From the NCBI GenBank assembly GCA_021234155.1, contig JAJEKV010000051.1, positions 6,796,761 to 6,860,760 on the forward strand: a stretch of DNA of 64,000 bases. Reading direction: 5' to 3'. The stretch is from Isoetes taiwanensis (lineage: Eukaryota; Streptophyta; Lycopodiopsida; Isoetales; Isoetaceae). Each line of letters begins with the position of its first letter. Position 1 is the stretch's first letter. The position numbers and the translations under genes are program-made. The notes below the pieces were generated by a model. It saw only the letters and a list, made by a program, of their open reading frames with translations. It was not told where the DNA came from and did not search any database. Of this stretch, positions 779 through 37,655 are shown in pieces.

Positions 779-812
779 AACAAGGTGACCTAGCAAACGC
801 ACTAATGACCTG
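779..812 (+). repeat. Element A left terminal inverted repeat
   Basis: The repeat starts AACAAGGTGACCTAGC and ends ACTAATGACCTG. Its reverse complement lies at 22728-22761 with a single C/T difference. It is preceded by the target duplication TCCT at 775-778. Confidence 0.9.
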
Positions 813-887
813 TGGTGCAATTGCAGATTCCTTTTTCAAAAACACGTAAATTCGGCATTTTAGCCATTTTTTTAAAAAACAAGCCCA

Positions 888-1195
888 AAAAACGCAGTGA
901 GCCTAAAAAAAGTCCACATTTCGAAGACAAGCAAGTTTTCTTGGTTTTGGACAAAGTAAGAAACACACTTTTTGGAGCACCAAAATGCAACTGAAAAGAG
1001 AAAAGCCTATGCGCGCATAGAGAAGACAGTCCTTATTAAATTATAATTTATTTAAAAAACGCAGTGAGCCTAAAGAAATCCACATTTCGAAGACAAGCAG
1101 GTTTTCTTGTTTTTAAACAAAGTAAAAGACAAACTTTTTAGACCAACAAAATGCAACTGAAAAGAGAAAAGCCTATGCGCGCATAGACATGACAG
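888..1195 (+). repeat. Two direct repeats near the left end of Element A
   Basis: A block of about 140 bp containing CGCAGTGAGCCTAAA, CCACATTTCGAAGACAAG and ATGCAACTGAAAAGAG occurs at about 888-1030 and again at about 1057-1195. Each copy ends in the palindrome CTATGCGCGCATAG (1007-1020 and 1173-1186). The block lies just inside the terminal repeat and beyond the methyltransferase stop, as expected for a subterminal repeat. No gene is seen between 813 and 1266. Confidence 0.85.
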
Positions 1196-1266
1196 TCATT
1201 AATGGAATATATTACATTTAAAATAGGGCACATAGAATAAAATGTTTAACTTTTGGAACAGAAATT

Positions 1267-3963
1267 TTAAATATCCAAAGGAACATCCTTTGCAGGTATT
1301 TCCTCATCTGATTCAGAACCTTCAGGAGACTTAGGCTTAGTAGCTTGTAGATTTTCCTCAGACTCGGCCGGACCTTCAACCTGCGTGACCTTAAGTGGAT
1401 CTTCGGCGGGGAATCAATTCAACATAGTGACTTGATCGTCGGTGTTCGGTAGAAGAGGAGGCGCAGGCTCGAACGAGGAGAAGGCGGAACACCATCCTTA
1501 TCCTTGATCCCAAGTTCCGTTTTTAGATCACGCAAAAGTTTGTGTAAGGAACCGACCGCGTGACTTGATGTATGCTCGCATCTGCGTCGGCGTCAATGGC
1601 TACTGCCAGATTCGCGACCCTTCGTAATGCACAAGCCAGCGTGGTGCGGATCACGAAAATCGTCAACGACCCAATCTCAGGTTGCGAGAACATGTCCGTA
1701 AGCGTGTTAATTAGTCTCTGAGGCTTCTGGTAGGGATTGACAATGTGTCCCTGGTGAACTGGGTCTGTAAGCTTTTGTAAGACTGCTGGGCATTGAAACG
1801 CATTGCGAAAATCCATGCCAGTAGCGTTATAGTGCATTTGGCTTCTCCGCCCGTGACACGCTATGGTAGCCTATGTGAATCTGCCCCACACGTTGACAAG
1901 TCTAGCACCACCACCTCCCCTAATATTCGTCTTTAACCTGCAAAGAAAGGAAACACTTTTATATTCGCTATACCCGCATGGAGAAAACAACTAGACACTT
2001 ACCATATGGCAGCCTCGTAACCAGCCTTGCAGTGGGTCTTCATAGCCGCTTGCACCATACCGGTCTGGTTAGTGGAGTGGAAGACGACAATCCTCCAGAG
2101 CGGAGCAGTGTTTATCTTAACAAACCTTCCCAAAAAGAATCAAACTCTACAGACGTAAATGGTGAGTCATCACCAAATTTTGTCGCAACTTAAACCCATA
2201 AGGTATGTCAGCAATGCACAAGGAATAGTTGCCAGGTCTCAAAGTGTGGTCGAGTTTAACACAATTCCCACGATACACCTGATAAAGACAATTCTGGCCA
2301 AACATATCAAATCTTTCAAACTCGGAAGGCACCAAACTCTATTCAGCTTCTTGAGACTTTTTCAGCTTTGACCGCTCCTCCTTAGCTAGCCGGACCATGT
2401 TCAAAAAGCCAGGTGGCATGGGGTCTTTCTTTTTCTGAAAGCCGAAACAATTTGTAAGAAACAAAACGACAGCTCCCTCACTCCTGTGCTATGCGCGCAT
2501 AGCATGGGAGTGAGGGACCTGTGGTAGTGCTATGCGCGCATAGCACTACCACAAGGTCCCTCAATCGCATGCTATGCGCGCATAGCACAGGCACAAAAAC
2601 GAATACCTTAACTCAAGCAGCAAGGAGGAGAAAGAAATGAGGGTGAAAGCATGCTAGGGTGTACCATCTAAAGTTCTTTTTAGGGAGTGTGAAACTACCC
2701 AAAAAAGTACCCAACACTGGGTACTGGGAACTTGCATTAATGTCTCAATAAACAATAAGTTTGAGAGTTTATTCATCCATGTTAGTCTCTAATAGTATTG
2801 TCATCCTCTAATACTATAGATTGACATGTTATTGACCTTCAACTCAAAAATTTTGGATTGATTTTAATAGAAAGAAAAAATAGAAAGTACCAGTTTTAAA
2901 AGTACCCAGTGTAGGTACTTTTGAGGGTTCCAAAAGTGGTACACCGTAGCATGCTTTCACCCATGACATACCCAGTTGGTAAAGTTGGTGGCATATTGAT
3001 TTATTTTTTCGTCTGAGGACCACGTGGGGTATAATTCCCGCACCTTCTCCCAGTTGTCGCAGTTGAGGTGAACCATTAGCTGTTGCTGACAGAGTGCACA
3101 ATCTTTTTGGCTGCAAACGTTCCAAGAGGTTAATAACAAACATTGGAAAAAACGTGAGTGTGTAATGTAGGCTTACTGTTTAAATTCTCTCTGCATCTCT
3201 TCCAGAGTGAACTGTTTATCAACAACCTTTTGCAGGACCTCACAAACTTTGTCAACATTTTTTAGGCCTTGCATTTCACGCCAGGCCATTATACCCATAT
3301 CCTTTTGCTTTGCGGGATCATTTTTCTTCCTCTTGGAATCCGTTGACTTGCCTTTAGTTTTTAAAGTGCCCTCAGAGAACATGTCAAAAATTTTTTCTTG
3401 TAGCTCCCAGACCTAACATAGAAAACAACAAGCATGTTAAAAAAATATTTAAGAGCCATGGGCGCATAGCCAAAGGCGAAGGTAGAAGAAAATACTTACA
3501 CGTCCATGCCGGAAAGCTAACTGAAAATAATTATCATATTTTACAAGAGATGCTCTGGCATCTGAGGTGGAGTAAGTTAGGCAGCACTCAGTAGCACACT
3601 GTTCTTTTAAGGCCAGATACAGAGCCTGGTCATCCTTAATATCTTTCTCACCTTGGTGCTCTGAACGGAAGAGTTCATATTCCCTGTGCATGAATTTAAT
3701 TTTATCTGTGAAGCTCATACTCATCCGATACTCATTGTCCACGTTGTGGCTCATTGCAAGCAGCTTTGCCTCTGAGTCAGTGACACCCACGTAAACAAAG
3801 GCAAAGATTTGTGAGAAGCAGTGCTCCTTTGTTTCCTTGTATAGCTGTCTTCTTGCCTTGAAACTGTGGGTGCCCCCTAAAACATAGTATTTGTAGTTCT
3901 CGTCCTCTTCCTTAACAAACAGCTCCTTATCATTACACTGGGCAGGATCAACTATACAAATAT
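1267..3963 (-). pseudogene. ParB-methyltransferase gene of Element A, 3' part
   Basis: This is the downstream part of the gene whose 5' part lies at 16772-17853. Splice sites and phases are visible. One exon ends at 3500 before GTAAGT; others run from 3412 to a donor near 3170, 3110-2972, from 2434 downward to a donor at 2002, and from 1937 down to a TAA at 1267. The first exon completes a ParB/Srx-like domain, with GGTHSFKARRQL (like the GGNHR box) followed by DSEAKLLAMSHNVDNE. A CALC...HLNC cluster follows at about 3100-3050. Next comes ADIPYGF (about 2170), a methyltransferase motif IV, then NPYQKPQRLINTL (about 1700), which resembles the QKP segment before motif I. IV before I is the beta-class order. 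Motif I is degraded (IFVIRTT). Breaks include an in-frame TAG at 2339-2341 and frame changes near 2149 and 1840. The tail is acidic. ParB-methyltransferase fusions are known in phages and bacteria; introns argue against contamination. Confidence 0.7.
2461..2590. repeat. Intronic palindrome cluster of Element A
   Basis: Three copies of GCTATGCGCGCATAGC lie at 2488-2503, 2529-2544 and 2571-2586, inside the intron between the exons ending at 2972 and starting at 2434. The first is extended by arms (CCCTCACTCC and GGAGTGAGGG). The second is the centre of a perfect 32-bp palindrome at 2521-2552 with arms GTGGTAGT and ACTACCAC. Such arms could extrude as cruciforms in DNA or fold as hairpins in RNA. 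Confidence 0.9.
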
Positions 3964-4105
3964 CACAAGGCCCCCAAAATTGAACCATTATAATTTTTTT
4001 TTAATGGTTTGTTGGTGAAAACCAAATCCATAAATCAGTACATGTTTGTGGGTTCAAAAGTTTACAAACCATGTCTAGTTATCTAATATGGTTCATCAAC
4101 ATATT

Positions 4106-4330
4106 TTTTAAAGGTGATAAGACAACATTGTTTTATGGCATGGTATTGAAACATGGCAATCTTAATTGGTTTTTATAACAACTTAACCTATATGATATTC
4201 TAATACGGTGAATCGACATATTTTTCTAAGGTGATAAGACAACATTGTTTTATGACATGATGTTGAAACATGGCAATTTTAATTGGTCTCTGTAACAGCT
4301 TAAACTATATGATATGTACTACTGTTTAAT
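4106..4330 (+). repeat. Left subterminal repeats of the CACTA-like element
   Basis: GGTGATAAGACAACATTG and the following block (TTTTATG.CATG.TGTTGAAACATGGCAAT) occur at about 4113 and 4230, a period of about 117 bp. More divergent copies appear to continue to about 4780. This fits subterminal transposase-binding arrays. Bases 4330-5000 are AT-rich with no gene. Confidence 0.7.
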
Positions 4331-5179
4331 AGGTCACATTTATTAGACTGGTATTTGATCGCATCTATCTTCTTCAGTATATTGACATGGTAATATTAAG
4401 CGCATAATTATCATGACATTTTATAGTGATTAATCACCGGTAAACAATCTTGGTTTAAATATGCTAATATGACTTTTTTTACCCTATTTTTCTCCATGGT
4501 ACTAAAACATGATTATTTCAGCTAATTTTTCTAACAACTTAAAATGTCTGATACGAACTAATGATTAGTATTTCAAGTTTAATAGAATGGTATTTGATCG
4601 TCGGTATATTGAAATGGTAAATTATTTGGATATTTTGTAGCAATTAATGGACAACATATAAAGCGGCAAATTGACATGGTTTGAATATGATTTTTTTTCC
4701 CTATAATTTGGAATAGTTAATCATTACGATTTGGAAACGGTGTAGGTATACCTAGTTTCAACTATATGGTATTTAATAGTGTTTCTTATGTGACATTTAG
4801 TGATATGAAATTGGAGCATAATAATTGATCTTTTGCATTTAAACCTTAATAATAAACTATCTTTAAATGTAATTGTAGCCTTTACAATAATATTTAAAGG
4901 TTAAACCTTATATCTACAATCAGATTTTCTCCATTTCTTTTTGCACAATTAATGTAAAACCATAATACATGTAATTAGATTCATAGCCTTTCTGCTGGGC
5001 TTTAACAGCTTATCTGCCATGAAACAGTTCAGAAATGTGCTTCTGTCTGGAAATGTGCTTCAGAAATGGGGTTGGTAGTTTCCTCAGCTTGGCAAATAAT
5101 CCTTGACTTTGTGTTTCACGCACAAAGATCAACACCATGTGCATGAAAAGGTTGAGTTGCTGGTGATCAAGCCGCGCAA

Positions 5180-6410
5180 TGGTGATCAAGCCGCGCAATG
5201 CACCGGTTACAAATGCTACAGTGCTTAGAACGTGCTGGCCTGCAATAGGGAGCAGATTTAAAAAAACAAAACATTAAAGCCCTTATCATGGAGGTGCCCT
5301 CTTTAAGCAGAAATTTAACTCTGGTGAACATAAAGTACCGGGATATTTGGCAAGTTGTACATATCTTCTCCTCATAAAGCGCGCCATCAAAAGGATATGT
5401 ATTTTGGTGCAAATGCAAATTAATCTGTTTAATTGTTCCTGGATCAGAAAAGCTTGTTACAGTGAACACCAATACTCCAAATAGAACTGATATAATGGTC
5501 CTGTGTACCTGTGAGATCACAGAGTAATTGCCATGACATGGTAACTAAGCTCGTGAAAACAATGCACCTTTGCACAAGTTTACTTCTAATGACTTACCTA
5601 TGGAAAGAAGAAACATAAATGCCCGGTATGTACTTGAATGAAGTCTCAAAGTATGCATAGAATGTACCACCAAGTATTGCTATTCTGCTTTTACAGAAAT
5701 ACCAACCAAAGTTAAACATTGTGATTTTCTGACAAGAAGAAATTGAAGGCAATTAGAACATAATGCAATAGGATAGCTAGTCATGGCTTATATCATCCTC
5801 TAGACTAAGAATAAAATATAGGAAGAAATATCATCCATAGAACAAGATCAAAGACGTAATGCTAAGAATTAAACTAAGATACTTGATGCCACTGAGATAA
5901 AACAGAACAAGAGCATGGTCTTTTTCGTTTGCCATATTGTTTCATTTGCCATATTGGCTTTGCCAGCCAGAATAATTCATCATGTTACTGTGTCCCATGG
6001 GGTCTAACGTTATTTGTATTCAAAAGATCAAACGCTACCTGGAGAATGGGATTAGGACGTTCACAGCATATGTCCCCTAGCCATTCATAGGCCCTCAATC
6101 CCCTAGTCCCAAATATGATGCCAATTATCTTCCTGCCAAAGTCATCATCAACAAATGAGCACTGGAAAAAAAATGCCAGTTCTGTTACATCCATGGTAAA
6201 CATCGTTACCAAAGCCAAAGGTAAGAGAACTTACTGAAAACAGTCACAAGTGCCTCCAGAAAACCAGTTATGAATAAGGCGTATTGGGGTGCCATCAAAT
6301 ATAGGCCAGTCTCCACATAAAAGAGCCATTGCTAGCATTAGCAACGAAAACAGGAACAAAATTACAAAATCCAACAATGCTATATACGAAAACCTACCCA
6401 GCTATCAGAA
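5180..6410 (-). pseudogene. Captured PAT17-like DHHC S-acyltransferase gene fragment
   Basis: Protein S-acyltransferases attach palmitate to cysteines through a DHHC active site in a membrane protein. Four exons with introns can be read on the minus strand. One at about 6400-6232 contains DWPIFDGTPIRLIHNWF. One at about 6220-6045 contains CCERPNPILQ and ends before GTAGCG. One at about 5730-5600 contains YAYFETSFKYIPGIYVSSF, before GTAAGT. One at about 5505-5355 contains TSFSDPGTI and KICTTCQIS. The next begins near 5240 with PARSKHCSICNRC and RLDHHC. Order and spacing match the N-terminal half of plant PAT17-type enzymes. A 19-bp tandem duplication at about 5160-5200 shifts the frame right after DHHC, and no downstream transmembrane half is seen. 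Retained introns mean capture as genomic DNA by the surrounding transposon. Confidence 0.78.
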
Positions 6411-6538
6411 TTACGACATATTTATTAAAAATGACATAAGAACAGAATATTATAATAACGAGTGCTCTCACTAGCACCATTGTTTGTAATCAATACAGCA
6501 TGTTCCAAAATTATCCTCTGAAGTAGCACCAAATAATC

Positions 6539-8702
6539 CTAACTACTAAACAGTTTCAGAGTTGTTCGATCAAAGGTACGTGTCCTCCATCCTTCTTTAG
6601 TAACCTCCACCACTTTTGATTTAATACATGCGATAGCAAATTGCTTATACAACTCTGGCCCTTTACTCTTAGACTTGACAAGAGCAAAAAAAACATTGCT
6701 GTTTTCAGGCTTGCATTTGCTGCAGAAATTCAGAATCTCAAAAGCCGTGACTTCATCCACTTTGTCTTTTCTTAAAGCAACCAAACAGACATTTTTATGT
6801 ACCGCAGGCTCTAGTGTGGCAAAATCCTTCAAAACTTGGCCATTAATAACCTGTACAATGGAGGTTAGTATAACAGTGAGCAGAAATTACATATGCAATT
6901 GATACTTTAGTGTACCTGCATGTTTGAGTCATGAATGATCTTCAAGGCCTTCGATTCCGTGAGAGGGGAGAGGCGATCAATTGGCCATCGTATATACCAT
7001 GCCCTCATGTCTTTCCCCAAGTCTCCAAATGTTATAACTTCATCCGTGGGCGGGTATGGTAATGCCACTTCTTCACAACCCTCATCAACAGCATGCACGT
7101 TTAAAGAAACATTGCCCTCGCCAATTGGTATTCCATGGATAAAGCCCTCTAAATCCACACGATGAATCTTACCCACTCCCATTGCAATACCATCAGTGAT
7201 CAGAGACACATATTGATTGGCACGGAACTCGTTTTCCTAAAACAAAAGTAATAACAAATAAATAGCAAATCCAGCTCTATTATAGTCTAGAAATTGCATA
7301 TATAATGAAAATACCTCATTACAAACATTTTTGGCCACCCACTCCGAATCGATACTTCCTTCGCTTTGACGTTTCCTTGTGTTTCGTGTTGATATTGAAT
7401 CATTTGCGCTTTCCTTTTCCACATCATCATCAGATTCATCATCTTCTACAAAGGCAAGCCTCCTATCAAGAGTCGATCGAGTCATGCATTCAGGCCATGA
7501 CAACTCATCCTACATATAAAAGACAAGTATGAAAATTATTAGCAGAAGATAAGCACATGCACAAAATCAAAAATTGGTAAATCATAGCAGAATAATGTAC
7601 TTACCCCTATGGAGAGTCCTTCAATCTTTCTTGCTGCGCACATGTGATCCCTTTCGAAAGGAAAATACACATTAGCTATATTGACACCAAGACTCAATAC
7701 TTTAATAGTCAATATGCTATAGGAATCATTATCATTTTTTCTGTCCTTCACCTCAGCAGCCCCAACCACAAACTCTTTATCATAAAAATAAGAAGGACGT
7801 TGGTAACCTGCATACAGAAGTTTGTTAAAGAATGACAGATCTGTTTTATCTAATGCCAAAGACGTTGCAACCAAAGACACATGGTCATCATCTTCATAAT
7901 TCCTCGAAAACTTATTCTCTCTTAATCTCAAACGTCTCTTGGCACCCGTAATAAGTGAATTTATTGTGTCTCTGACAAATTTTTCAGGGACTGAATATGC
8001 CACACCTGGCCAACATATTTGCTTCAAAGATCCATCAGATGTCAAAAGATGCACTAGCTTGTCTCTCCTCTTTATCCATTTTTTGTTCTGAGCAGCTCTC
8101 TTAAATTCAGGCAAAGTAAAATTTGGGAATTCATTGGAGGCAGCAGCTCGGATTACCCTATGATTCTCCATCATTGTAATCCATTGTGCATGATGGCCTG
8201 TTTTCTTTAATGCTAATCTGCCATTTTTGTCAGATCCTCTACTTAAATTGTTGAAAACAACATGTGATTCCGGAATTTTAGTAGAACTCATTTGCCCAAA
8301 CTGCTCCAATGTGTTGGTGGCAGGCTTGTGATTCTTTCTCCCATCCAGAATAGAAATAGATGTTCCAGAAACATCAGCAGATGGTCCAGCCTTAGAATTA
8401 GAGATGGAAAAATTGCCTGCACCTACACTGTTTGCACCCGCACTATTTGTAACAACCTGCTGCTGCTTAATCTGATCTCTCAATGCAACAATTCCAGCAG
8501 CTATTCCTACTACAAAACCCAACTTTAGCCAATCACCCAACTCCAAGCTCAAGAAAGATATCCCAAAAATGCGATTTTCATGAATTACAGGCTCAATCTC
8601 ATCACAAACACATGGAAAACGTTTGAGAATATAGGAAGATACATTTGATGGCTCCCACTTTGAGACTTCTGCCATGGACGGCACTGGCAGTTCCTCAGCC
8701 AT
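6539..8702 (-). CDS. SAM-domain protein gene carried by the CACTA-like element
   Basis: Four exons join cleanly in phase 0: 8702-7605 (donor GTAAGT), 7509-7315, 7236-6916 and 6850-6539, giving about 641 residues with no internal stop. The start is the ATG at 8702, the first in frame before GCTGAGGAACTG. Residues about 10-65 look like a SAM domain, a protein-protein interaction fold (KWEPSNVSSYI ... IFGISFLSLELGDWLKLGF). A low-complexity linker follows, then a basic segment rich in Lys and Arg (KKWIKRRDKLVH). Exon 3 encodes a module with the pattern HGIPIGEGNVSL ... LPYP ... GDL...WPIDRL, resembling the DUF8039-type domain of plant transposon proteins; a similar module is in Element B at 31200-31999. 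Lying inside a Tnp2 element, it is probably the element's accessory protein. A host-derived gene is the alternative. Function is not established. Confidence 0.8.
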
Positions 8703-11030
8703 GAGCAAGTTTGGATTTTTTCAGGGTAAGAAGTTTACCTTATATCTTATATGACCTTGCAGATCCGTTGAGGTTCGAAGCAAATGCGCCGTCCCTTGTT
8801 ATCATGGCAGTTTCTCCACCAGGTTCTTCATTTCTTGGTGACAGCAGGTTTCGGATTCGCACTAGTTAGCAGCGTTTCTTCATGACAGCAGGTTTAGGGT
8901 TTACGAAAACAAAGTGTAACGTCACCGAGCAAAACGTTACACCACAAAAGGTTTCACCCTAAAGCTTGAAATTTTTTTTTTTTTGTATAGGTCAATGTAA
9001 GTGGTACATGCACTCATGAGCACCAAGGAGAGGTTCATCTCAAAAAAAATCTAAAACTCCAAGAAGACGGGATGCTATCAAATGCACACAACAACCCTCT
9101 TGCAATTGGTACTATGCACAATTTTTCTAACAAGCAAAACCCTTAAAAAAAAGGACCAATTTGCATAGATTCTGGGCAAACTAAAATATGATGAGCACCA
9201 AAACTCCGAAATAACATGCTATAACTGTGAATTATAACTCTTATATCAGATTGCCCAATACCTTTGTCTTCCTTTGGAAAAGGTTCGTGTTACTTAGCAC
9301 TTAAAGTTAAATATCTCTTTGCCACTTTTTTTTTTCCCCTCTGAACAAATGTGTAGTGTTTCTGTACGATAAGAACGAGTGTCTAGTTTGTGCATACATA
9401 GAACTTGAAGCTCTTTTTCTTGCGCCTTCTTTTTCCCCGTACAATAAGATAGAGTGCCTAGTCTGCAGGTACGTAGAAATTAAAGCTTTTTTCCTTGCGC
9501 CTTCTTTTTTCCCAGCACTGAGAAAACCACTGAAAAAACCACACAATGAGTAAACACAATAAATTCGCACAATAAATCCTCTTGCAATTGATAAGCATGC
9601 ACAAGAAAACAGATTGGACAAAAATGACCCACTTAACCCCATTGGACAAAACTGACCACTTTGCATGGGCATTTACCAATGAACGATTTGCTTAGGCATG
9701 TATCAGTGACCAATTTCGCATAGACAAATTAAAAGATAATTAATGCACGTCCAAGCACTAAACATCCTATCTTGCCTGCTTTCATCATGTGCATTAAACA
9801 TGAACTTGAAATGCATAACATCAAAAGTTATTCAAGCTTTGTAAAAATTTTGAAGTTGCACTGTCTAGAAATGTCGTAACAAATTTTCCGGTCCTAAAAT
9901 AAGCAAATACATAGGACATGAAAAGCTTCTCCAAAAGGAAACGTCAATGAGCAGAACCAAACAGGAGGCCTTATAAGTTTGACTTGTGAACGGTGTTAAC
10001 ACTGGCACCACATAAACAAAAGTGTTCTTGCACGACTTGTATGCACATGGATGTCTGGCACAACTCCAGGTAAAGAATACACGTAAATTTCAGCGAAGAA
10101 ATGTTCGGCAAAAAGAAAAAATGGACATCCCATGGAAAGAAACTGCACGGATGTCCCAACCCCCAAATGTTCCCCTTTACGGACATAAGACAAGAGGGGG
10201 AAATGATGTGCCCCTCCAGTTCGGCCATTCTTGCTAGCTCAAAATGTGATTTTGACTTTGGGCATGAGTCCAGAGCATCTAGTTTACTGTAGGGACCAGC
10301 GATTTGTGACCAACAGAGCCAAACTTCATTTGCTACAAGCTTAAGCAACTAGTCTATCTTTCATTCGATGCACTCTAGCCTAGTGTTATACTAATGTAAA
10401 GCTAGCACGTACTTGGCAGTTCGGGCATTTGACCAATTCTCTACTCCTCGTACATGTGTCCTAGGGTAACTCTGGCCTTCTGGATGCAACCGCACAGTCG
10501 AAATGTCGTTGCATGCCAACCGGCATGCTCCGGTCGCACAATGTGCTCGCGGGCCATCACAACGGAGCAAGTTTGGAACTGGCACTTGGGGAGGGTTTTT
10601 CGGTCTCATTCTTAAGGTCTCTCTTCGAACCCTCGAAGGAACCCTGCGAGACCATTGAACTTGTATATACATGACATTAATCATAGTTGTAAAGGTTCAA
10701 AATAAGAAAACTTGGTGGGAATAGTATTATGAAAAAGTCGGCAACCAAGACTGACCAAATCCATTGCCTAAACTGTCGGATGCCAACTGATTCTGAAAAC
10801 CTTAAATTGTATAGAACCTCTCAGTTGAATATATAGTGATTTGCAAATCATTTCTGGCTTAATCGTGAACCCTAAGGACATTTCTTTAAAGGTTTAACTG
10901 CCACAGTGATTACTTCGATCTCATTGCTACAGTGTCCTGTAGTTTAATAACTCAATGGTCTATAAGGGTTAAAACGGATATTTGAATAATTCAACCTCTA
11001 GATAATTGTGTTGAATACATTGATATAGGT
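8703..11030. other. Non-coding spacer between the two genes of the CACTA-like element
   Basis: I see no supported gene. The 5' leader of the SAM-domain gene presumably lies in 8703-8960. A block containing TTGCGCCTTCTTTTT is repeated twice at about 9366-9515, with a period of about 75 bp. The remaining short frames have no recognisable motifs. Confidence 0.5.
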
Positions 11031-11340: not shown

Positions 11341-11450
11341 TGAATGCACTCAGACTAGGTATGTCCCAGCATCTTCCTTCTGTTTTACATTGCTAGCTTC
11401 TTCCTTCTGTTTTACATTACATTTCTGTTTTACATTGTTTCTGTTGCTGT

Positions 11451-15880: not shown

Positions 15881-15889
15881 TGCTACTAA

Positions 15890-16690: not shown

Positions 16691-16771
16691 TGTATTGTCA
16701 TATAAAAAAATCACATATATACTGGTTTTCATGCTAATTTTTTATACAAGTTCATTTTTGGGGGCCTTGTG

Positions 16772-22727: not shown

Positions 22728-22761
22728 CAGGTCATTAGTGCATTTGCTAGGTCACCTTGTT
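22728..22761 (-). repeat. Element A right terminal inverted repeat
   Basis: Reverse complement of 779-812 with one mismatch, followed by the target duplication TCCT at 22762-22765. Confidence 0.9.
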
Positions 22762-22765
22762 TCCT

Positions 22766-27682: not shown

Positions 27683-27686
27683 TAAA

Positions 27687-27712
27687 AAGCATGATTTCAT
27701 TAATTGGAGAAA
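27687..27712 (+). repeat. Element B left terminal inverted repeat
   Basis: AAGCATGATTTCATTAATTG followed by GAGAAA matches the reverse complement of 37630-37655 at 24 of 26 positions. TAAA precedes it at 27683-27686. Confidence 0.7.
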
Positions 27713-27966
27713 ATAACGCAATTTTGAGAATTTTAAGCACACCTAATTTTCTCAAGCACAAATACTTTCACCTAGTTCTCGAGCCCAAGAAACATGAGGT
27801 AATTAACATACACATATACATTCAAATTATGTGTTATACTTGTACGTATACATGATACTTGTAGAAGCCCAATAATGGCCCTACATTCTACACCAATAAT
27901 TCACATCAATAATTTTACTTCACTATAAAAACAGTTCGACTCGGGGGTAGAGGTCATTCATCTTCC

Positions 27967-28209
27967 ATGTCTTCCTCGATGCCTCGTCCAGAGCACATCC
28001 GATCTTTCAAGTGCTACTTGAGCTACAACGATCTGAACGAATGCGCTAGAAATGGTATTAATCTTGATCCATGGCTCCAATCTAAAGCTGATGGTCCTGC
28101 TAGTGCTTGCAAGAAGCTCACTCGTGTTGTGGTCCACATTTACTGGCTTCCTGATCAGGAGATCTATGAGCTGAATAGCATCACGAGCTTTGGTGTTGAT
28201 GATGAGTGA
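27967..28209 (+). CDS. Small cargo protein 1 of Element B (80 aa)
   Basis: I do not recognise the family. The ATG at 27967 opens an 80-residue frame. A TATAAAA box at 27924-27930 lies 43 bases upstream of the ATG. The protein aligns without gaps to the frame at 28507-28749: both have a Lys-Cys near residue 15, L.LDP..(Q/R)(S/R)KA at about 32-41, HIYWLP/HLIWLP at about 57-62, and an acidic end (DDE/EDE). There is no signal peptide, membrane segment or Cys cluster. It lies between the left end of Element B and the transposase gene, so it is probably element cargo. Conserved length and TATA spacing after divergence suggest selection on the protein. Function unknown. Confidence 0.65.
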   Translation: MSSSMPRPEHIRSFKCYLSYNDLNECARNGINLDPWLQSKADGPASACKKLTRVVVHIYWLPDQEIYELNSITSFGVDDE

Positions 28210-28506
28210 ACCTGCATCTGCTAAGGATATAATAATGACATGAGTACCTATGAACTATATATTACACTCAATGTTATCAGTGATGACTACTGTATTTGTT
28301 TATGATATAATAATGGTATGAGCACCTATGAACTATGTTTTAAAAGCATACACATATCCATATGAAAGATGTATTATACTTGTATGTATACAACAATCTT
28401 ATACACACGCAATAATGGCGGTAAGTCTACCCCAATAATTCACCTCAATAATTCTACCTCACTATTAAAAGCTTCTCACTTCGGGGCTAAAGTTCATTCA
28501 TCTCCC

Positions 28507-28749
28507 ATGGATTTTTCGCCTTCATCAGTTCACCACATCGAGGCGATCAAGTGCTCAATGAGCCACTCTGATCTTGTTGGTTGCCTAGACAGGCATCTTC
28601 TTCTTGATCCCTACCTGCGAAGAAAAGCTTTGAGCGCTGAGATTCGTTGCCCTGTGTCAATTCGTGTGATGATCCATCTGATTTGGCTTCCTGAGCGCAT
28701 GAGCTATGAGATATCAGGGATCACTACTACAGATCCTGAAGATGAATGA
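28507..28749 (+). CDS. Small cargo protein 2 of Element B (80 aa), tandem paralogue
   Basis: This tandem paralogue of the gene at 27967 has exactly the same length and is collinear. It starts at the ATG at 28507, with a TATTAAAA box at 28463-28470, the same distance upstream as in its neighbour. Flanking sequence is duplicated too (TACTTGTA.GTATACA and CAATAATTC.AC.TCAATAATT), so the unit copied included the promoter. Conserved positions are K.S..SHSDL near residue 20, LLLDPYLRRKA, HLIWLPE and the acidic terminus. The two proteins are clearly diverged at residue level yet keep length and frame. Function unknown. It stops 145 bases before the end of the convergent transposase gene. Confidence 0.65.
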   Translation: MDFSPSSVHHIEAIKCSMSHSDLVGCLDRHLLLDPYLRRKALSAEIRCPVSIRVMIHLIWLPERMSYEISGITTTDPEDE

Positions 28750-28893
28750 ATCACCTGTTCAACATGTTATAGTGTAAGAGCTCTTGTGTTAAGATGAAAA
28801 ATGCAAGACGTAATGAATAATAAATAGTCTATTGTAGTGATGTTATGGATAATAAATAGTCTATTGTGAAATGCTTTAATGTACCTGTAAGAC

Positions 28894-31800
28894 TCAAGTT
28901 TCATCTCCTTCCTCAGATGCCTCTTTAGCAAGCAATTCATGTAGCTGGATTCCTACAATAGGAGGTATCACAACCAATAATGGCTTCGGTTCCACAAACC
29001 AAGCATAGTCTATCGTTTTGAGAGGCTGATAACGTGGTCTGTCATTAGGATTCGGCCTCCACTTTTTATGCCAGCAGTCCCGATACTGTTGAGCGTACGG
29101 GGTGCCTTTCCTAGCCACAGGCTCCCACCAAGAAACAAAAACCTCGTTATAATGAGGGGCAGTGGGATCTTGTATTGGATCCTCTTCCGCATACGCTACC
29201 CATGTAGGACATGCATCTGCTGGTCTTACAAGAAGAAACATACCTTTCTATACATCTTGGTATGGGTCAAGTATCTCCACTGCATTCTTGGGTTTATCCT
29301 TAGCAAGTCCAACATAGGCAGCCGGAGCGTCATATCGATCGACCTGAATAGATTCAGGCTCTTCAAGCACAACTTGCCTTGTTTGAGGCCAGAAGTTCTG
29401 AATTTCTGGATTGCCCGGGGGTACTTCACCTAGCACACGCATAACTTCGCACCAGTAGTCCATGACCTCGTTCATGTAGGTATTAGACCACGAGTTCACA
29501 CCAGCCCTGGAGATGTTAGCCCAATGCATCATGTACTTCGCAATGGACGACCTCAATGCTCCTATGTCCTTGAGGCATGCATATGGCCTGACAGTCTTGG
29601 GCGAGCCAATCGGTATCTTTGGCAAACCATTGTCATCTGCTTTCCACATCCGAATACCCTTTTCTGGCAACCATTCTCTATGACCAGGTCTCATCTTGTA
29701 ATACATTAATGGCCACCCATCATTCATGCAGAACTTGAATAATAAGGGCTCCAAGTGACCAACCAAACGGTCCTTCTTATCAGGAATGTAACCTTTTACG
29801 AACCCCTTCCAATCGGGAACCTCGGTAACAAGGTATGGTGTCGGTGCCTTTGTGCTACATTCTCGGAAGAGTTGCATTAGTTCTGGAATAGTTAGAGCAT
29901 CCGACCTGCGCATTAACGTTGAATAGTTACCGAAGAGCGCATCAATGTCATCATGAGTGTGGCCTACCATCATGAAGCCAACCTGTATTTGATCAAAAAC
30001 ACCCAACCACACAAGATAGGATAGATAAGAGAAGAGATATCTGTTCTTGTTCTGCCCCGCGCAGTTGTCTAGCTGCAAGTAGAGCCGCCTAGGTAACCTC
30101 TTAAATTGCGCTGGTTGCTTAGGAGGTGCTACAAAGTCTACCCCAGTGCAATTGTTTTTTTTGTCCTCAACCCCGCACTGTTTAGGAGTGCGGTTCCCCA
30201 CATGCCCTCAGGCCAAGCTTCTTCTCTCAAATGTCCCCAATTGTCTTCGGAAGTGTCCTCCAGTGTTTTGATAGCATGATTCAAGGAACCAACATGAAAA
30301 TTTGAATCATCCTTCCAAAGGTCGAGTGAGAAATGTCCTAAGGCACCTGTGCCATGGCCATGCATCAGTGCACCAGTCACGCTAACTTTCAAGCGTTCAC
30401 CTCTCCATACCGATTTGGCTAATTTCTCCAGTCTTGGAATCATAGTCTTGTTTTGGTCCATCTTATCATGTATGATAGTGAGCACCTGGTCTGGTGATCG
30501 ATGGGACAAAGCTCTCCATGACCAGTACAAGCTCCTACAAGAGATCTGGGCTGTCATGTGTTCCTTCCTTTCCATCTGCAATTCTCTTCTCTCCCGTGGA
30601 TCTCTGGTTTTAGCCATTTTCTCTTTTATTACAATACAGGTATTGCACTTGGAGAAAGCTGTCCTCTTTGCTATTGCAACCTCTGCGTGATTTTGCTTCC
30701 ACCCACGTGAGAATGAAGAATGTGAGATGTGCTTGCCCGTCATCTCCATCACATTGGCGTCCACCTCTTGAAGAATGTTCTTTTTAGTTAGGACAGAGGG
30801 GAGCCTCTTCACATTCTCTCTCACCCCTTCAGTAGTGATTTTCGATCTGTGGGGCATCGTCTCTGCATTCTCATCTATGTACATAGAGAGTATGGCCTTT
30901 CCGGCGAGAGTGTGAGGCCTCGGCTTTTTCGTGCCCGTGTTACCATGCTCAGCAACTCTGTGACCAGCAAGGAAAAGTCTTCGCCACTTATAGAATGTGG
31001 ACATTGGAATACCATAGGCTCTATGCCATGCTTTCAAGCGTACTTGCTTATTATTTAGCATCGCTTACGGACCGGGCCATTCGTGGCAGGGCGTCTAACA
31101 TGTTGAAAACAAATGTGGTCCAATGCGAAGCTCGCAAGTTCAATAGAACCTATGCATACACGCAATCTTTTGTTGAGAAGTTTTGCGCAACATCTTCGCG
31201 ATGCAGAGCGAAGACTTAAAGTCTAAAATAGAAGCTGCTGTGATTTTTCTCTCAGCTTTAGTGGCCACAGGAGGTGAACGTGGGGTCCGGTTCACCATTC
31301 TGTACATCCTCTTTGGTGCCTTTTCAGGCTCAATTTGCATGGCATAGGGTTCTGCTTCAATGACTGTCTGTTTCGCAGTCTTTATGAGTGTTGACACAGC
31401 AACATTGTCTACTAACACCAAAGCAATCGGCCACCTCACCAGGTCGTGCAACTGTGGCATTTCAGCACATGCTTGGCATCGCATGGTCGGCCTATCTGGC
31501 ATAGGGAATGTCTTCATTATGGTTGCTGCCAAGTAGTCTTCTCCCAATCTCATGTCACCGACAGCCTGATTAGGGTCAATGAAGATGATCACCCCAAGGG
31601 CATACGGAATGTTGCAGCAGTCATGGAGTAGTGTGCAACTTTTCTCTACTAGCTCGTCCCTTGAAATGCCTCGAAAGTTATTCACGGAAGGGCTTTCCGG
31701 TGCTTGCAACCCCAGCCAATCAATTTTTTTAATCTGTGCAGGCGGTGTGGATATTTCAGGTTCTTGTGTAAGGGTAGCTATCCACTGCGCTGGCCACAAA

Positions 31801-32000
31801 ATAAAACTCCCTAAAGAATCCGCGAGTGTTGTAAATTCCGGTTCAGGAAATGGCAAACCAATGCTTCCGTCGAGAATAACTTCCATAGACACTACTACGC
31901 TATCTCTCGGCAAGAGCAAGTTGTGGTGCTTGTCGAAGGTATGTACTTTTTCCTCGCCCACTTTGACTCCATGGAATAGTATGGACTTCGAGCCAGCCAT
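28894..32000 (-). pseudogene. DUF7869-type transposase-like gene of Element B
   Basis: Reading leftward from ATG at about 31999, the first segment (to about 31200) has a DUF8039-like module, KSILFHGVKVGEEKV ... SIGLPFPEPEF ... GSFILWPAQWI. A possible intron or frame change follows at about 31140-31061. Then comes a helix-turn-helix-like stretch (YGIPMSTFYKWRRLFLAG) with basic sequence, a CNTCIVIKEKM motif, and HDKMDQNKTMIPRL (about 30450). A frame change in an A-run near 30155 precedes LYLQLDNCAGQNKN (about 30080) and VGFMMVGHTHDDIDALF (about 29970), the DUF7869 acidic block. After an in-frame TAG near 29246 the frame runs on to 28894. Acidic residues in MDQ, QLDN and HTHDDID are plausible catalytic positions of an RNase H-like nuclease. 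Few breaks make this the better-preserved of the two copies. Confidence 0.78.
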
Positions 32001-33150
32001 GTCTGCAACCACAATGGACGTTATTGCTCAGAGAAAACGCCACCGCGATGTCACAGAGCACTTTCAAGCAACCAACCTCAAGCAAGACAACTTCACGTTT
32101 GCCAGACAAACCAACTTCAAGCAAGGACGTGGTTAGCAGGATCGCGGCCGCGATCTCCTAGAGCAAGCAGATACCATAGTCTAGATTATACGTACCTTAG
32201 TCTAGATTATGCTGCGCAAGATCGCCTTCGCGATCCGGACGAGTACTAGCTGTGTCGTAGGGATGACCTGCGGGAGAAGTAGATGAATCAATAATCATTG
32301 ATGGGTAACTTTATGGGAGAGCATTAAATGGTACCTTAGTCTAGAATATGTTCGGCAAGATCGCCTTCGCGATCCTGATGACTGCTAGCTGTGCCGTTAG
32401 GATCACCTGTATCAGAGGAAGATGAATGACATCAACGTCTACAAACAGGAACATCTTAAGAATTGTTGATAGAGGCAATCTATATTCCCAAATTAGAACG
32501 AGATTTGATTTACCAGACACAAAGAAGGGGTGCATGCGGTAAATTTAACTGAAAACACAGTTTAATGAATGAACTTGCCTGTCTTTGGCCTTCAATGAAT
32601 TCTACAACGTCAAATATGCTTGGATGCCTTGAAATTCATCCGAGCGCCATTGTAATCCACCATAGCGCCTTCAATTTAACTCCGGCGCCTCGAACAACTC
32701 CTTCCCAAGCTTTGCAACAATGAAAGTCTTAGAGGGTCTTACCGCGTTTGAAATGGATTTGAATTTGAAAATGATGTCCTTCGGGCGGGACCCCTTTTAT
32801 GCTCTAATGTCCCTGTCCCTATCCAATTTAAACTGACATGCCGTGAGTGATTTGCTGTCCTTTCCACCTGCCCTACAGTCACTCTCACACAAATTCTCAC
32901 GTGTAACTGTCCCGTACGTTGCCACGTTGGGGGTGGCATTTTGAGGGAATGGGGGAATATGCCGCCCGTCATAATGATGCCGCCCGTCATAATGACGGCG
33001 CCCGTCATAATGGCGCCGCGTGTCATAAATGCCTCGGCCATAATGGCGAACTCTATAAAAAGAGAGGCGTTCTTTTTCAAGTCCCCCTCGCGAAAATTTC
33101 TAGCGCCTTCAGGAAATTACTAGCGCCTTCGGAAAATTTCTAGCGCCATC
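32001..33150. promoter_or_regulatory. Divergent control region of Element B
   Basis: This region lies between the start of the transposase-like gene (leftward) and the ParB-methyltransferase gene (rightward). It holds a perfect GATCGCGGCCGCGATC at 32140-32155 and two GATCGC-CTTC-GCGATC sites at 32220-32235 and 32359-32374, each embedded in a direct repeat (TACCTTAGTCTAGA.TATG ... CTAGCTGTG). Four to five 18-bp GCCGCCCGTCATAATGAT-like units run from 32961 to 33048, then a TATA box (CTATAAAAA, about 33051). Three roughly 20-bp units containing TCTAGCGCC (about 33096-33148) run up to the ATG at 33151. These look like operators and a core promoter, by inference. Confidence 0.7.
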
Positions 33151-33258
33151 ATGTCTCGTGCCGCTGCCCTCAAAGAAAGTAATTTCCGCGATTTTTTTTA
33201 GCATAGGTATCGCCATAGCTGCTACCAGGTCTTTTTAGGATAGTTAGATGGTCGACAG

Positions 33259-33404
33259 GATCGCGGCCGCGATAGTTGTGACCACGACCTTTCCTCTTTT
33301 CTGGAAGGTAGTGCTCAAGACAATCGCGGCGTATCTTGCCAGCATAATGGTGACAGAACACCCTTTCTAAGTTAGCTACTGATCAACCGCATCGCGGCCG
33401 CGAT
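33259..33404. repeat. Element B palindromes in the 5' part of the ParB-methyltransferase gene
   Basis: GATCGCGGCCGCGAT occurs at 33259-33273 and ATCGCGGCCGCGAT at 33391-33404, in probable intronic sequence. Confidence 0.85.
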
Positions 33405-34724
33405 CTTTATGAACACTTTCTTCCAATACTAGTGTATCTAACCTGTGTTCAATTGCTTCTGCAGCCCTCGAACTATTCCGCGGGCCCAATGTAGAACCAA
33501 TCAGAATTGTCACACCCGATAAAAGCGAGGAAGTGGTGTGTTGAAATTTCCACGAGCAAAACCTCATGTCTTTGGAGACCGCCCGAAAGGACTTGTGTTT
33601 GTTCTTCGGGAATGGCAAGGGTCGAAGATTACGAGCAGCTAGGTATAGTTATTGCTATGTGGGAAGGTACCAAAAATAATGTACGAGGATGCAATAATTT
33701 GCGGCGTAGAAGATACTCATCGGTATTTGCGGTTTGTGGAGTACGTTTTGAGATGGCGTAATTATGATCCATCCATTATGATGATTTAGTAAAGTCAACA
33801 AACCGGCAAGCGGCAAGGGGATGCCCACCAGTGCTAAGGGATTTGGCTGGATATTGCCGTCCTATGATTCCTTAAGTTTGTCGGGTATAAAGTGCAACAG
33901 GGATATACTGTTGGATTTAGCATGTGCAGAAAGGATCTTTCCGCTGATAAGAAACCTCCTTCTGCTGCTTTGAAGGCTACTAAGGACAACAAACTGCCTT
34001 CAAGGATGGACACCAACTGACTCAGAGCTGTTGCAAAGAAGAGATCCGTGGCCCCTTTGCAGGCTATTGGCGAACCATCCACTCCAAAGGATACTGTAGT
34101 GGCCATGGAGGCAAATGTTGTTGTTCCTTCAGCAATGCTGTAGCCCCCTCAGCAAATGTTAGTTGTTCTGCCATAGTGGACCCTTCAGCTCCCGTCATGC
34201 TTTTGACTGCTCCCGCCAGAGACTCTGAGGCACTAGAAGAACAGCCATCAAAGAGGATCAGGCCATTCAAGATAAAGATTCCAAAGGCGAGCACGGATGA
34301 CGGTGCGCAACCTTCGACATCTTCTACTCCTTCCTCGTCCACTAAACCAACACCTACCAGCCACTTATTGCCCTGGAGAACTGATCCCCAAATGCCAGAA
34401 GATTTGAAGTTTAATCCAGATGAAGAAAAGAAACTGGCTCAGGAGACAGCATCCAAGCTCGAGGAGTTCAAAAGATATTACCCAATGGGTGTAAACTGGT
34501 TCCAAAGGGTGAGCATTTTCGATTGCGAGCTAGCTCCCGCTAATATGACACATAGAGTCCGGTCAAATGACCATGTACAGACCCTGATAAAAAGCTTCAA
34601 GAAATACCCGACGGAGGTTCTTACGCCTGCCGATGTCGTTCCATTTGATCCTTTAACAAGGTCTGTTACAACATATTTATTTCTTTCTTGGCATATTGGT
34701 TATATATATAAATATGCTCAACCG

Positions 34725-34740
34725 GATCGCGGTCGCGATC
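34725..34740. repeat. Element B palindrome in an intron
   Basis: GATCGCGGTCGCGATC lies about 65 bases downstream of the probable donor after the ParB-like exon. This mirrors Element A, where a palindrome follows an exon donor by 12 bases. Confidence 0.85.
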
Positions 34741-37116
34741 TTCGTGAACAATTACTTGCACTGACTAGTGTATCTCGGTCGCTTACAGGAAAGTAGTCAC
34801 TTGGGCGCCTTTAAGAACCGGCAAACAAGAAATTTTTATTATTTCGGTAATCTTTGCATTTTACCCCATTTGCATAGTTTTTATGCACATATCGTGGGCA
34901 ATGTCGAGCAAAGGTTGGAATTTGCGAAAGCATATGCCAAAAAGAAGAAGTCGCGGTATTAAATGGTAACCTCTCCAACAAAGAATACATTGATTTCTAT
35001 ACGAGGCAACGACGAATCGCGTAAACGGTATACAAAGAACCACTGATAGAAAAGCTCCAACAACTAAGAAACCAGCACAAGGCATTCGGATGTCCTCCAC
35101 AAGGGCCAACAGGAACTGCAGTGACATCCGCCTGGAAGGTATGTTTTTCGTTTCTTTGCTTTCGGGGAAAATCGCCGTCGCTGATCCTAACCGACACTTA
35201 AATGGGGATTTTCTCGATGTGGCTACCACAACTTTGAAGGTTAAGGAACCGGAAGGATGAGAAGCGATTCATTTTATGCAAGAATCTTCCTGGTCTAAAC
35301 TTCGTAGAAGTTGTCAACAAATGAGCAAGCGAAAGCTCATCGATGATCGGGGAATTACCGAGAAACCTTCAAAGGATTTCTTCAACAAGACATTCCTAAG
35401 AAACCTACGAGGAATGAACAATGATGAGGTAAGCTAATTGATGGACGAAATCTTACAGGGCAAGGTTTTCTTGAAAGTGCAGCAAGGATATGCAGGACGT
35501 TTTAATTGCAGTCAGAGGGCTCTAGACATCAGAACACTTTCACTCATGCGTCGTGAAGTGTTATCATATGCCAATTCTATCTCAGAGAAGCTATACAATA
35601 ATTTTGAAAAGTTGGCTTCATGTTTTCCGAGAATCGCCCGCGAACAAGCGTCTCACGGATATTGCGAACCTGATTTCAAATCGTCAAAGCAAACTATAAT
35701 AAAGAAGCGGTTCAAGGTAATCGCATACAGTTTTGGAAGCTATTGTTGCTATAATGAGGCGGAAGAGGCCGGAAAATGAAAGAGAAGCAAAACACCGTCG
35801 CGGTAAAGACGTCACAAAAGCGGCATCCTTGTGTATGCGTTCGGTGTCGAGAAAATGCGGTTTGATTTTTGTTGACATGCGTAGTTTTTCCATATTTGTG
35901 GGATGTGAAAAAAATACCGATTTTTTTTTAGCAGAGTTGCAGGGGCATGACGGGCAAAAGTGTACCATATAGTCATGTTTCTCGGATCGGCACATTTGCC
36001 AAACCTGTTTGTGATCCCGAGCGGATACAAGGTAGCTCCCATGTTTCCCTAGGGGCTTATGAAGAGAAAGGATGGGAGAGCAAAAAAAATATAAAAGAAT
36101 TCCAATATTATGTCAGCCATGTGACAATAAACAGGAGTGACGTTCGGGTGCTGCCCGTTAAGCCCAACTTGGAGCTGCGACTGACTCAAGTCACTAAAGC
36201 ACCACAAAGCACTCCTCTTCCAATATATCCGATTACTGGCGACGAAGAGGTAGATGCAAAAACAAAAAGAAAGTATTTGGAGTTCTTTACAGGTAAACCA
36301 AAATTCTCATGGGCAGCTATGGAAGGCGACTTCGTCCTCAAGAGCCAAGCAAAAACCTCTTATGTCTATTATATAGTGAAGGAGCTGGTACCATTAGAAG
36401 GTTGCATTTTGGATTTCTTCTCAGGCGGAACTACCTCGAGGGTAGCGTTGATGCAAGGAAAACGGAGTGTTGCTTTTGAGTATGACGACAAGGTTTGCCA
36501 TTTCCTTAGATCTTTCTTCGAGATTCTAGAGAAAATGGCAAGGCCTGACATGGAAGAGGAAGGTAAAGAGCAAGGTGAGCAAGATGAAGAGCAACGTTCC
36601 GACATGCCTGATATTAATATAACACAGGGAACGGATCTCAGCCAGATGGATCAGATGCTAGACAAACTGGATCAGAAAAGCTTCGAAGAAAGGCTGCAGG
36701 AGACCCGGGAACTGATAGAGCAGACTGAGAAGGCACAGGCAAAACTAGATCCAACTTTCAAGAAGCTTGAAGCACTGAACAAGAACTTGGACTCCTTAAT
36801 GCCACTAGTAACCAAGCAATTGGACAAGCCCCTTCCTAATTTTGAGTATGGGGGAACTTCTGAAGCCGCCTCCGGAAGTGGGAGAACCTCCCCCGACCCT
36901 TCACCTAAAAGGCAGAAGCTGGTACCCTCTAATGAATATTCTGAGCAATTGCAGGACGAATTGTTTAATAGCCAAGATATGTCAGAGCGTGTTCAGAACG
37001 CAGCACAGGCAATGGGTGTTGACATCCCAGAAACAACTGGATATACAGAAATGGACCTGTCACAGACCCTTGCTCAACATGGTGTTGATCCAGAGACTGT
37101 ATTTGAGACTCAGTGA

Positions 37117-37629
37117 TATAGCCTTCGCCTCTGTGCTGGGCATTTTGTACAAACTTTTTGTTAAGACATTGTGTTTAAATTTTCACCTGTTTTCGGGTTC
37201 ACTATGAGTTATGCTTTTTGGGTTCACTATGTGTTATACTTTTGTTCACTATGCTTTTGTGTTATCTCAACTTTGAATTGGATAAACAAAGTAGTCTGGA
37301 AGATCGCGGTGGCGATTCTGTACACCAGTTATACATCCCCCAGATGGTAACTTGACCACGAAGCACACAATGTGCTTCTTGTATTCTGCCTTCACTTGTT
37401 CTCGCAAGAATCGCAATGGCAATCCTTACGACCACTCGTGATGCTGCTCAAACCCCTCGGTTACTGTCATGACAGCTTTGGGCTACAGGCCTGGTGTCAA
37501 ATTATGGCGCGTGTTATTTTTTCAAGCTGAACTTAGGATTATTGACGCTTTGTTTTGGTTGAGAGGAATCATTTCTTACCATCCCCGGGGTGACCACGAC
37601 CTATTTCGTTGTCAAACGAGAAAACGAAA
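37117..37629. other. Right subterminal region of Element B
   Basis: No gene is seen. Imperfect palindrome copies lie at 37302-37317 (GATCGCGGTGGCGATTC) and about 37409-37425. GGTTCACTATG.GTTAT is repeated two to three times at about 37196-37262. Confidence 0.55.
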
Positions 37630-37655
37630 TTTCTCTAATTAATGAAACCATGCTT
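37630..37655 (-). repeat. Element B right terminal inverted repeat
   Basis: Inverse of 27687-27712 with two mismatches, followed by TAAA at 37656-37659. Confidence 0.7.

Follow-up and report, generated by a model that had tools for sequence, protein, structure and literature searches.

Among the closest described systems is Sola1-1_Ec32 of the brown alga Ectocarpus, a 21.5-kb transposon that encodes, on the strand opposite its transposase gene, a protein with a ParB-like and an N4/N6-methyltransferase domain. Its authors propose that this protein binds and modifies its own transposon, and they cite cases from green and red algae (PMC12477816, citing Iyer 2011 and Petroll 2025). A second system is that of the VANC proteins, which act on VANDAL elements (PMC5735166, PMC10398659); VANC binding regions lie in introns and in intergenic and terminal noncoding DNA, and the motifs are family-specific and often form tandem arrays (PMC5735166). 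We analysed a 64,000-nucleotide stretch (the window) of the vascular plant Isoetes taiwanensis (contig JAJEKV010000051.1, positions 6,796,761 to 6,860,760) that holds two DNA transposons, elements A and B. Each has a transposase-like DUF7869 gene, a divergent gene joining a ParB-like to a methyltransferase-like domain (the ParB–methyltransferase gene) and palindromes of its own. Judged from sequence comparison, A and B are, on balance, probably distant members of one transposon group with a self-recognition module, in which the ParB–methyltransferase would act in cis after binding its own group’s palindromes.

Like Sola1-1_Ec32, A and B place a ParB-like and N4/N6-methyltransferase gene opposite the transposase gene. 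They differ from it in size (about 9–10 kb), in occurring as thousands of first-look candidates, in carrying group-private palindromes and in including a lineage without catalytic motifs, whereas no word beginning ‘palindrom-’ stands in the main text of the Ectocarpus paper (PMC12477816). The likeness to VANC of Arabidopsis VANDAL21, as published, lies in an element-encoded protein, family-specific short motifs and the same noncoding placement. VANDALs are Mutator-like elements; the VANC motif YAGTATTAY is not palindromic, unlike the sites here, and VANC proteins contain DUF1985/DUF287 and no ParB or methyltransferase domains. Neither DUF1985 nor DUF287 was present among the Pfam matches of the proteins studied here. 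Bacterial ParB/parS systems share with these elements a ParB/sulfiredoxin-type fold (probable here) followed by a helical region, and palindromic sites that are often clustered; they differ in that here the protein is fused to a methyltransferase, the sites change from group to group, the carrier is a nuclear transposon rather than a replicon, and no ParA gene was seen. CcrM and other beta-class methyltransferases have the same motif order, IV–X–I, and detectable homology, but CcrM reads the short site GANTC, whereas the candidate sites here are palindromes of 14 bp or more and the B lineage lacks the catalytic motifs. Finally, Bce_0392 of Bacillus cereus joins a ParB domain to an adenine methylase and is reported to nick DNA nonspecifically; it is bacterial, and no cognate palindrome array appears in the description given of it (PMC5512222).

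The earlier note on this DNA, written without a search, knew of no described plant system with this combination. The Ectocarpus element and the algal cases contradict this in part, and Sola1-1_Ec32 led us to drop the stronger claim of an unprecedented system (PMC12477816); the palindrome code, its covariation with the gene group, the binding-only lineage and the occurrence in a vascular plant appear to be new. DUF7869 is not named in the open-access literature searched, and no other description of such elements was found there, in a search that did not extend to palindromes and left most subscription journals outside. The published algal self-binding idea appears to come without a named target site, and explicit candidate targets can be given here for several groups. 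If the proposal is right, sequence-specific self-recognition would have been solved a second time in plant transposons, by an unrelated protein.

Element A (779–22761, no strand assigned) is bounded by 34-nt terminal inverted repeats (TIRs; 779–812 and 22728–22761) that are 97% complementary, and by exact copies of the target-site duplication (TSD) TCCT (775–778 and 22762–22765). It is split by a nested element, without which it measures 9,175 bp; a complete copy elsewhere, L018, lacks the insertion, is 8,957 bp long and has the TSD GACC. Element B (27687–37655; 9,969 bp) has the TIR AAGCATG(A/G)TTTCATTAATT and the TSD TAAA (27683–27686 and 37656–37659). The 4-bp TSDs were exact in all ten copies checked, seven of A (window, L018, L033–L036 and L070) and three of B (window, C106 and C262). 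In the 1,658,258,908-base assembly of 1,110 contigs on which all genome counts were made, the TIR of A (34 nt, up to 3 mismatches) matched 288 and 299 times on the two strands and that of B (26 nt, up to 2 mismatches) 652 and 682 times, against 0 for each backward-read control. Separately, C996:11128045-11142079 holds three same-strand TIR-B matches at intervals of about 7,000 bp, a pattern suggestive of elements in tandem.

The DUF7869 gene lies at 18976–22212 on the plus strand of A, with the domain match in frame 20692–21072, and is spread over several frames at 28894–32027 on the minus strand of B; the matches to PF25273 have E values of 1.5e-41 in A and 4.9e-38 in B. In both elements it stands head-to-head with the ParB–methyltransferase gene on the opposite strand, so that the architecture described in the earlier note (TIRs, 4-bp TSDs, DUF7869 and an opposite ParB–methyltransferase gene) is common to A and B. 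Sola1 target duplications are also 4 bp, and on gene layout and TSD length this DUF7869 transposon group is probably of Sola1 type. The ParB–methyltransferase genes of A and B are very distant; no BLASTP hit between A and B frames was obtained at E 0.01. Further copies with these genes, which the note had suggested collecting, are very numerous as candidates: the genome yielded 9,911 first-look candidates for DUF7869 and sets of 2,790 and 1,478 for the other searches with these genes, and 150 of each set were scored, for DUF7869 the best 150. DUF7869 was found in none of 14 control genomes.

On the minus strand of A, the ParB–methyltransferase gene comprises an N-terminal exon (17424–17855, limits approximate), the 5′ part of the ParB-like domain with an acidic/basic linker (16772–17354), the 3′ part of that domain with the motif GGTHSFKARRQ (3497–3963), an exon coding for a helical region (3176–3412), a methyltransferase exon with motif IV as ADIPYG (2047–2431, frame broken in this copy) and a last exon with motifs X and I and an acidic tail (1275–1936, approximate). 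The nested insertion, stop codons and the loss of motif I, degenerate in this last exon, have broken the gene. In B, on the plus strand, the ParB-like domain occupies 34392–34655 and, with the GNHS motif region, 34824–35141, and the methyltransferase-like domain, whose catalytic motifs are lost in the lineage, 35216–36546; the latter two segments are frameshifted in the window copy, and the gene is broken by frameshifts and stops.

Each element carries a palindrome that is confined to it. The A palindrome, CTATGCGCGCATAG, has 11 exact copies in the window, all within A, and the B palindrome, ATCGCGGCCGCGAT, has three, all within B. No site of any of the seven palindrome types recognized in this work occurs in the remaining 44,843 bases of the window, as expected from the earlier claim that the palindromes are private to the elements. 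In A they lie in subterminal DNA (1007–1186, starting at 1007 and 1173; and 22390–22403 on the right side), in introns (2489–2585, starting at 2489, 2530 and 2572; and 17405–17418), in an array at 17909–18125 (four exact copies at 40 bp and degenerate copies at 18071 and 18112) and, centrally, as a one-mismatch copy at 18625–18638. All 13 A sites checked (11 exact, two with one mismatch) fall outside the ParB–methyltransferase exons, the limits of which are approximate and set by homology. In B, GATCGCGGCCGCGATC lies at 32140–32155, and imperfect relatives of it occur at 32220 and 32359; central copies start at 33259 and 33390 (33259–33405), a copy with one mismatch lies in the intron that separates the two ParB parts (34725–34740), and a degenerate copy is subterminal at the 3′ side (37302–37317). 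The placement noted earlier, in the central region, introns and subterminal DNA, thus agrees with the site positions in both elements. As a separate observation, the CpG observed/expected ratio is 0.60–0.73 in six element stretches versus 0.46 in window positions 38301–64000.

Genome-wide, the A, B and C palindromes have 1,551, 965 and 3,720 copies, and the backward-read control gave 0 for each. Of 16 palindrome places, which were among the first hits listed, 15 (all except L062) show blastn similarity (E ≤1e-8) to known element loci within the kilobase around them, covering 81 to 1,001 of 1,001 bases; some of the shorter matches may reflect the palindrome context alone. The most frequent 10-bp palindrome core of each of 52 stretches was compared with 100 dinucleotide shuffles per stretch. 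The window A core (12 sites) and B core (three sites) each exceeded all 100 shuffles, as did the A core in 11 of the 13 A-group loci (L021 has two sites and L023 none) and the top core in all eight C, D and E loci (L047 and L050 included, L048 excluded). In L030 the top core is a variant, TATTCGAATA, ahead of ATTCCGGAAT, and in L003 and L012 an AT-rich core came out on top. At least one B site is present in 16 of 18 B loci.

Palindrome type follows gene group. The A-like and B-like loci were picked by methyltransferase similarity, three of them (C6 (L004), C95 (L012) and C38 (L025)) being also known palindrome holders. In a FastTree phylogeny of 27 ParB–methyltransferase genes, the C, D, E and Azolla-type genes (the last described below) form groups with support 1.0, D and E are sisters, and the A group is the remainder across a branch of support 1.0. 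A palindrome accompanies 24 of the 27 genes, all but L023, L041 and L042, and in all 24 it is that of the gene’s own group, which answers in the affirmative the question, raised by the earlier note, of whether palindrome and ParB–methyltransferase clade covary. Group labels were given after the palindromes had been seen; the cross-count of the seven types over 52 loci was mechanical, and its off-group sites were one E-type site in each of the two D loci and a mixed locus, L048. This locus combines E-type sites with a B-like gene (29% identity) that has another palindrome of its own, GCGCAGCTGCGC, whose sites are often 27 bp apart. L047 has C-type palindromes, and a ParB gene was not detected in the stretch fetched. 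When six loci were picked by DUF7869 alone, all six had a palindrome family and four had an A-type ParB–methyltransferase gene. That each group has its own palindrome suggests that the protein recognizes its own kind of element.

The palindromes of four groups share a frame. The A (CTAT-GCGCGC-ATAG), C (GTAT-TCCGGA-ATAC), D (GTAT-GAATTC-ATAC) and E (GTAT-AAATTT-ATAC) palindromes keep TAT-N6-ATA constant and differ in the centre, as expected for a conserved protein with changing inner contacts; the B, F and Azolla-type palindromes fall outside this frame. Dyad symmetry often runs beyond the core, with differing flanks. The usual spacing between sites is 30–32 bp in E, 41 in A, 42 in C, 50–52 in the Azolla type and 112–116 in D, or about 3, 4, 4, 5 and 11 helical turns, so that five of the seven types lie near whole turns. 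A pooled phasing test on the first listed A, B, C and D places, which assumed uniform spacings of 20–140, gave R 0.40 over 33 distinct spacings with a best period of 10.2, and 10 of 2,000 random sets scored as high. Spacing counts are not independent, because array units duplicate together, and we regard the helical phasing as suggestive.

Between groups and subgroups, synonymous sites are saturated (pS, the proportion of synonymous differences, 0.73–0.92), with nonsynonymous proportions (pN) of 0.08–0.49 and ratios of the corresponding rates (dN/dS) of 0.04–0.34 in pairs with finite dS; gene and palindrome have both been kept across this divergence. The palindromes also persist where no gene does. 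Five elements with TIRs of A and without detectable coding sequence (2,765–7,980 bp), fetched from 12 TIR pairs of 2.8–8 kb among the matches listed, all contain exact palindromes; one of them, C150 (L033), was picked by its TIR pair and was known beforehand to hold palindromes. Four of the five have a palindrome 237–239 bp from an end, against 234 in L018 and 235 in the window copy, and stretches resembling the central array (L018 4828–5051) are found in L033, L035, L036 and L070 and not in L034. The sample represents two lineages rather than five, since L033, L035, L036 and L070 have a derived interior in common. In the shuffle test, which covered all of these except L070, the A core exceeded all 100 shuffles in L033, L034 and L035 and was equalled by one of 100 in L036; in L035 and L036 an AT-rich core is as frequent as the A core. 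Because copies with no gene left to regulate retain the sites, the palindromes probably have a role in cis, as part of the element’s DNA.

The methyltransferase domain is readily recognized in most groups. A frame of L026, a well-preserved relative of the A gene, matches PF01555 (N6_N4_Mtase) with E 1.4e-17 over positions 3–216 of 221, and CcrM is the nearest solved structure to a spliced query (E 2e-10). Motif order IV–X–I in the A, C, D, E and Azolla-type groups is that of a beta-class N4/N6 methyltransferase; across 27 rows of these groups, motif IV reads ADIPYG or ADLPYG in 23 and motif I reads DAFSGSGTT or DLFSGTGTT in 18, the motifs of the remaining rows being variant, broken or truncated. 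Motif I of the Azolla type reads across an intron. By contrast, the unbroken B-lineage rows listed have DMRSF, DMRAF, DIRSF or DMHAF where a PPY-type motif IV would be expected, and DFFS(A/G/D)GT(A/T) replaces the FxGxGTT motif I. The Pfam methyltransferase match in the window B copy reaches only E 0.0026, and the L005 and L009 frames of the B lineage gave none. Between B subgroups pN is 0.14–0.20 at pS 0.78–0.87, with dN/dS of 0.10–0.26 (finite-dS pairs); on these substitution patterns the domain is under purifying selection despite its lost catalytic motifs. Methylation is therefore not the function common to the whole group, and the earlier proposal that the protein marks its element by methylation is not general: it fails for the B lineage, which lacks motifs IV and I, and has a possible basis in the groups with intact catalytic motifs (A, C, D, E and the Azolla type).

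The domain that precedes the methyltransferase, with the motif GG(T/N/S)HS, is probably of the ParB/Srx type, as far as profiles and a structural model indicate. The NCBIfam ParB profile TIGR03764 matched L030 only (E 1.3e-4), at 21.7 bits where the family cut-off is 143.75, and DUF6551, which we take to be ParB-like, matched four proteins at E 0.009–0.14. An AlphaFold model of the Azolla-type protein from a 17-row alignment was searched with Foldseek: the top seven of 34 matches were ParB, Noc or PadC (best E 5.4e-3, none at 0.001), and sulfiredoxin chains ranked tenth or lower with non-significant E values above 2. A second look with VIA returned 16 ParB-family entries and three sulfiredoxins among 32, a result that the tool itself does not count as proof. 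A single-sequence AlphaFold model of the L026 ParB exon was unusable, with a predicted local distance difference test score (pLDDT) of 41, and the two matches of a PDB profile search (E 0.52 and 0.59) were both dihydrofolate reductase–thymidylate synthase. The two domain assignments in the earlier note were thus not rejected by profile search; that of the methyltransferase holds for the A, C, D, E and Azolla-type groups, the domain of B being only methyltransferase-like, and that of ParB depends on weak hits below family cut-offs and on a low-confidence fold.

These observations can be combined into a mechanism. A trans-acting ParB–methyltransferase would bind its own group’s palindromes, often side by side on the helix; in this way it would tell the copies of its own element apart from all other DNA. 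The bound factor would then act in cis, most likely by keeping these copies accessible to transcription and transposition despite silencing, in the manner of VANC. In the groups with intact motifs (A, C, D, E and Azolla type) it would probably also methylate an adenine or cytosine within the palindrome or close to it, and in the B lineage the protein would have turned binding-only. We infer from sequence both that the ParB–methyltransferase rather than the transposase is the binder and that binding, spreading, methylation and anti-silencing follow as steps. A more elaborate form of this proposal, which we hold only tentatively, is a self/non-self code: ParB-type proteins would load on their own palindromes, spread over the element and deposit N6-methyladenine (6mA) or N4-methylcytosine (4mC), though not in the B lineage, as an element-specific mark blocking host silencing or licensing transposition; a change of centre inside TAT-N6-ATA together with a change in the protein would create new groups, making related elements of one nucleus mutually invisible. 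The paper on the I. taiwanensis assembly reports Nanopore reads (PMC8566536), so that 6mA, 4mC or 5-methylcytosine at CTATGCGCGCATAG, GTATTCCGGAATAC, GTATGAATTCATAC, GTATAAATTTATAC and GATCGCGGCCGCGATC may be readable from existing data. Natural controls are available in sister groups that differ only in the palindrome centre, in the lineage without catalytic motifs and in the coding-free copies that keep their sites.

Several results weigh against binding of own-group palindromes by a ParB–methyltransferase. The genome count of the D word is just 64 against 11 in the backward control. B sites are sparse, their core being on top and above all shuffles in only six of 18 loci, and L006, L013, L023, L041 and L042 have a ParB–methyltransferase gene and no palindrome. 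B spacing is mixed, 60 bp being as common as 63, of which only 63 fits six turns, and the 27-bp spacing of F is off the helical repeat. CpG decay gives no clear signal of protection: the CpG-transition variant is found at 231 genomic places and the non-CpG variant at 90, and in aligned A copies transitions affect 45 of 1,494 CpG and 184 of 10,089 non-CpG positions outside palindromes and 2 of 136 and 0 of 132 inside them, the latter being small numbers biased to intact sites. As to the ParB assignment, Pfam made no ParB call for the element proteins, the ParB alignment used as a profile found no ParB among PDB sequences, the AlphaFold model searched above has a low mean pLDDT of 55, and VIA Z scores for it reach at most 5.0 while unrelated chains reach 4.1. 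Covariation, moreover, does not say which protein binds, because DUF7869 is linked to the same palindromes.

This last point underlies the main rival, that the palindromes are sites of the DUF7869 transposase, serving as internal and subterminal transposition enhancers, while the ParB–methyltransferase does other work such as protecting or marking donor DNA. Transposases with subterminal repeats are familiar from plants, the coding-free copies keep the palindromes, in four of five with one about as far from an end as in full copies, and B frame 30138–31064 matches HTH_23 weakly (E 0.05, below the cut-off). The densest A arrays, however, are central and intronic rather than at the ends, the overall placement is VANC-like, and palindromes are the kind of site on which ParB and methyltransferase families would be expected to act; we judge the transposase a rather unlikely binder, yet the alternative to be taken most seriously. 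Palindromes that serve only as repressor operators, autoregulating the two divergent genes with no part in element recognition, would account for the A arrays between the head-to-head genes and for sites upstream of the gene in five of the seven Azolla-type loci. This explanation is hard to reconcile with exact palindromes in all five coding-free copies, from two lineages, where there is no gene, and with sites in introns and subterminal DNA of coding copies, and we consider it improbable. Slightly less credible still is that the palindromes are passive tandem repeats, spread by slippage and inherited by descent. Arrays do grow as tandem units and members of a group share descent, but exact palindromes are retained at a divergence that saturates synonymous sites, dispersed single sites also occur, and dyad symmetry often continues past the core into differing flanks.

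The ParB–methyltransferase gene probably occurs in another plant as well. A search through bacterial and archaeal genomes returned seven loci (L038–L044), all in one bin of an uncultured Trichormus, whose best segments are 34–40% identical to the methyltransferase query and whose coding sequence is split as by introns. All seven have the ParB part, L042 also has a facing DUF7869 frame, and a frame of L040 may belong to a retrotransposon. Because Nostoc (Trichormus) azollae is described as the symbiont of the fern Azolla, the seven loci are probably Azolla DNA, that is, host contamination of a cyanobacterial metagenome-assembled genome. The palindrome GTCGAT(A/G)CNNNG(C/T)ATCGAC lies upstream of the gene in five of the seven loci, with 13 sites in L043, 10 in L044, four in L040 and one each in L038 and L039. 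Against viral contigs, the methyltransferase alignment found one locus only, L037 (30% identity over 63 residues), and the ParB alignment gave 84 pattern matches and no relatives. A tblastn search of phages gave 531 records, and the 15 matches listed had identities of at most 26% and covered the methyltransferase part alone; as these are weak and confined to that domain, no phage donor is named.

The element nested in A (3964–16771) cuts its ParB domain. It ends in CACAAGGCCCCC as TIRs, is flanked by the 3-bp TSD TAT and, from its ends and duplication, is presumably CACTA-like. Its two long frames (11397–12854 and 13138–15084) gave no Pfam match. It also contains a DHHC palmitoyltransferase fragment (5167–5544; E 7.5e-7), perhaps a captured gene piece. 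Elsewhere in the window, remnants of non-LTR-type (long terminal repeat) retrotransposons, with zf-RVT, endonuclease and RVT_1 domains, occur at 38469–38930, 43613–46475 and 59031–60535.

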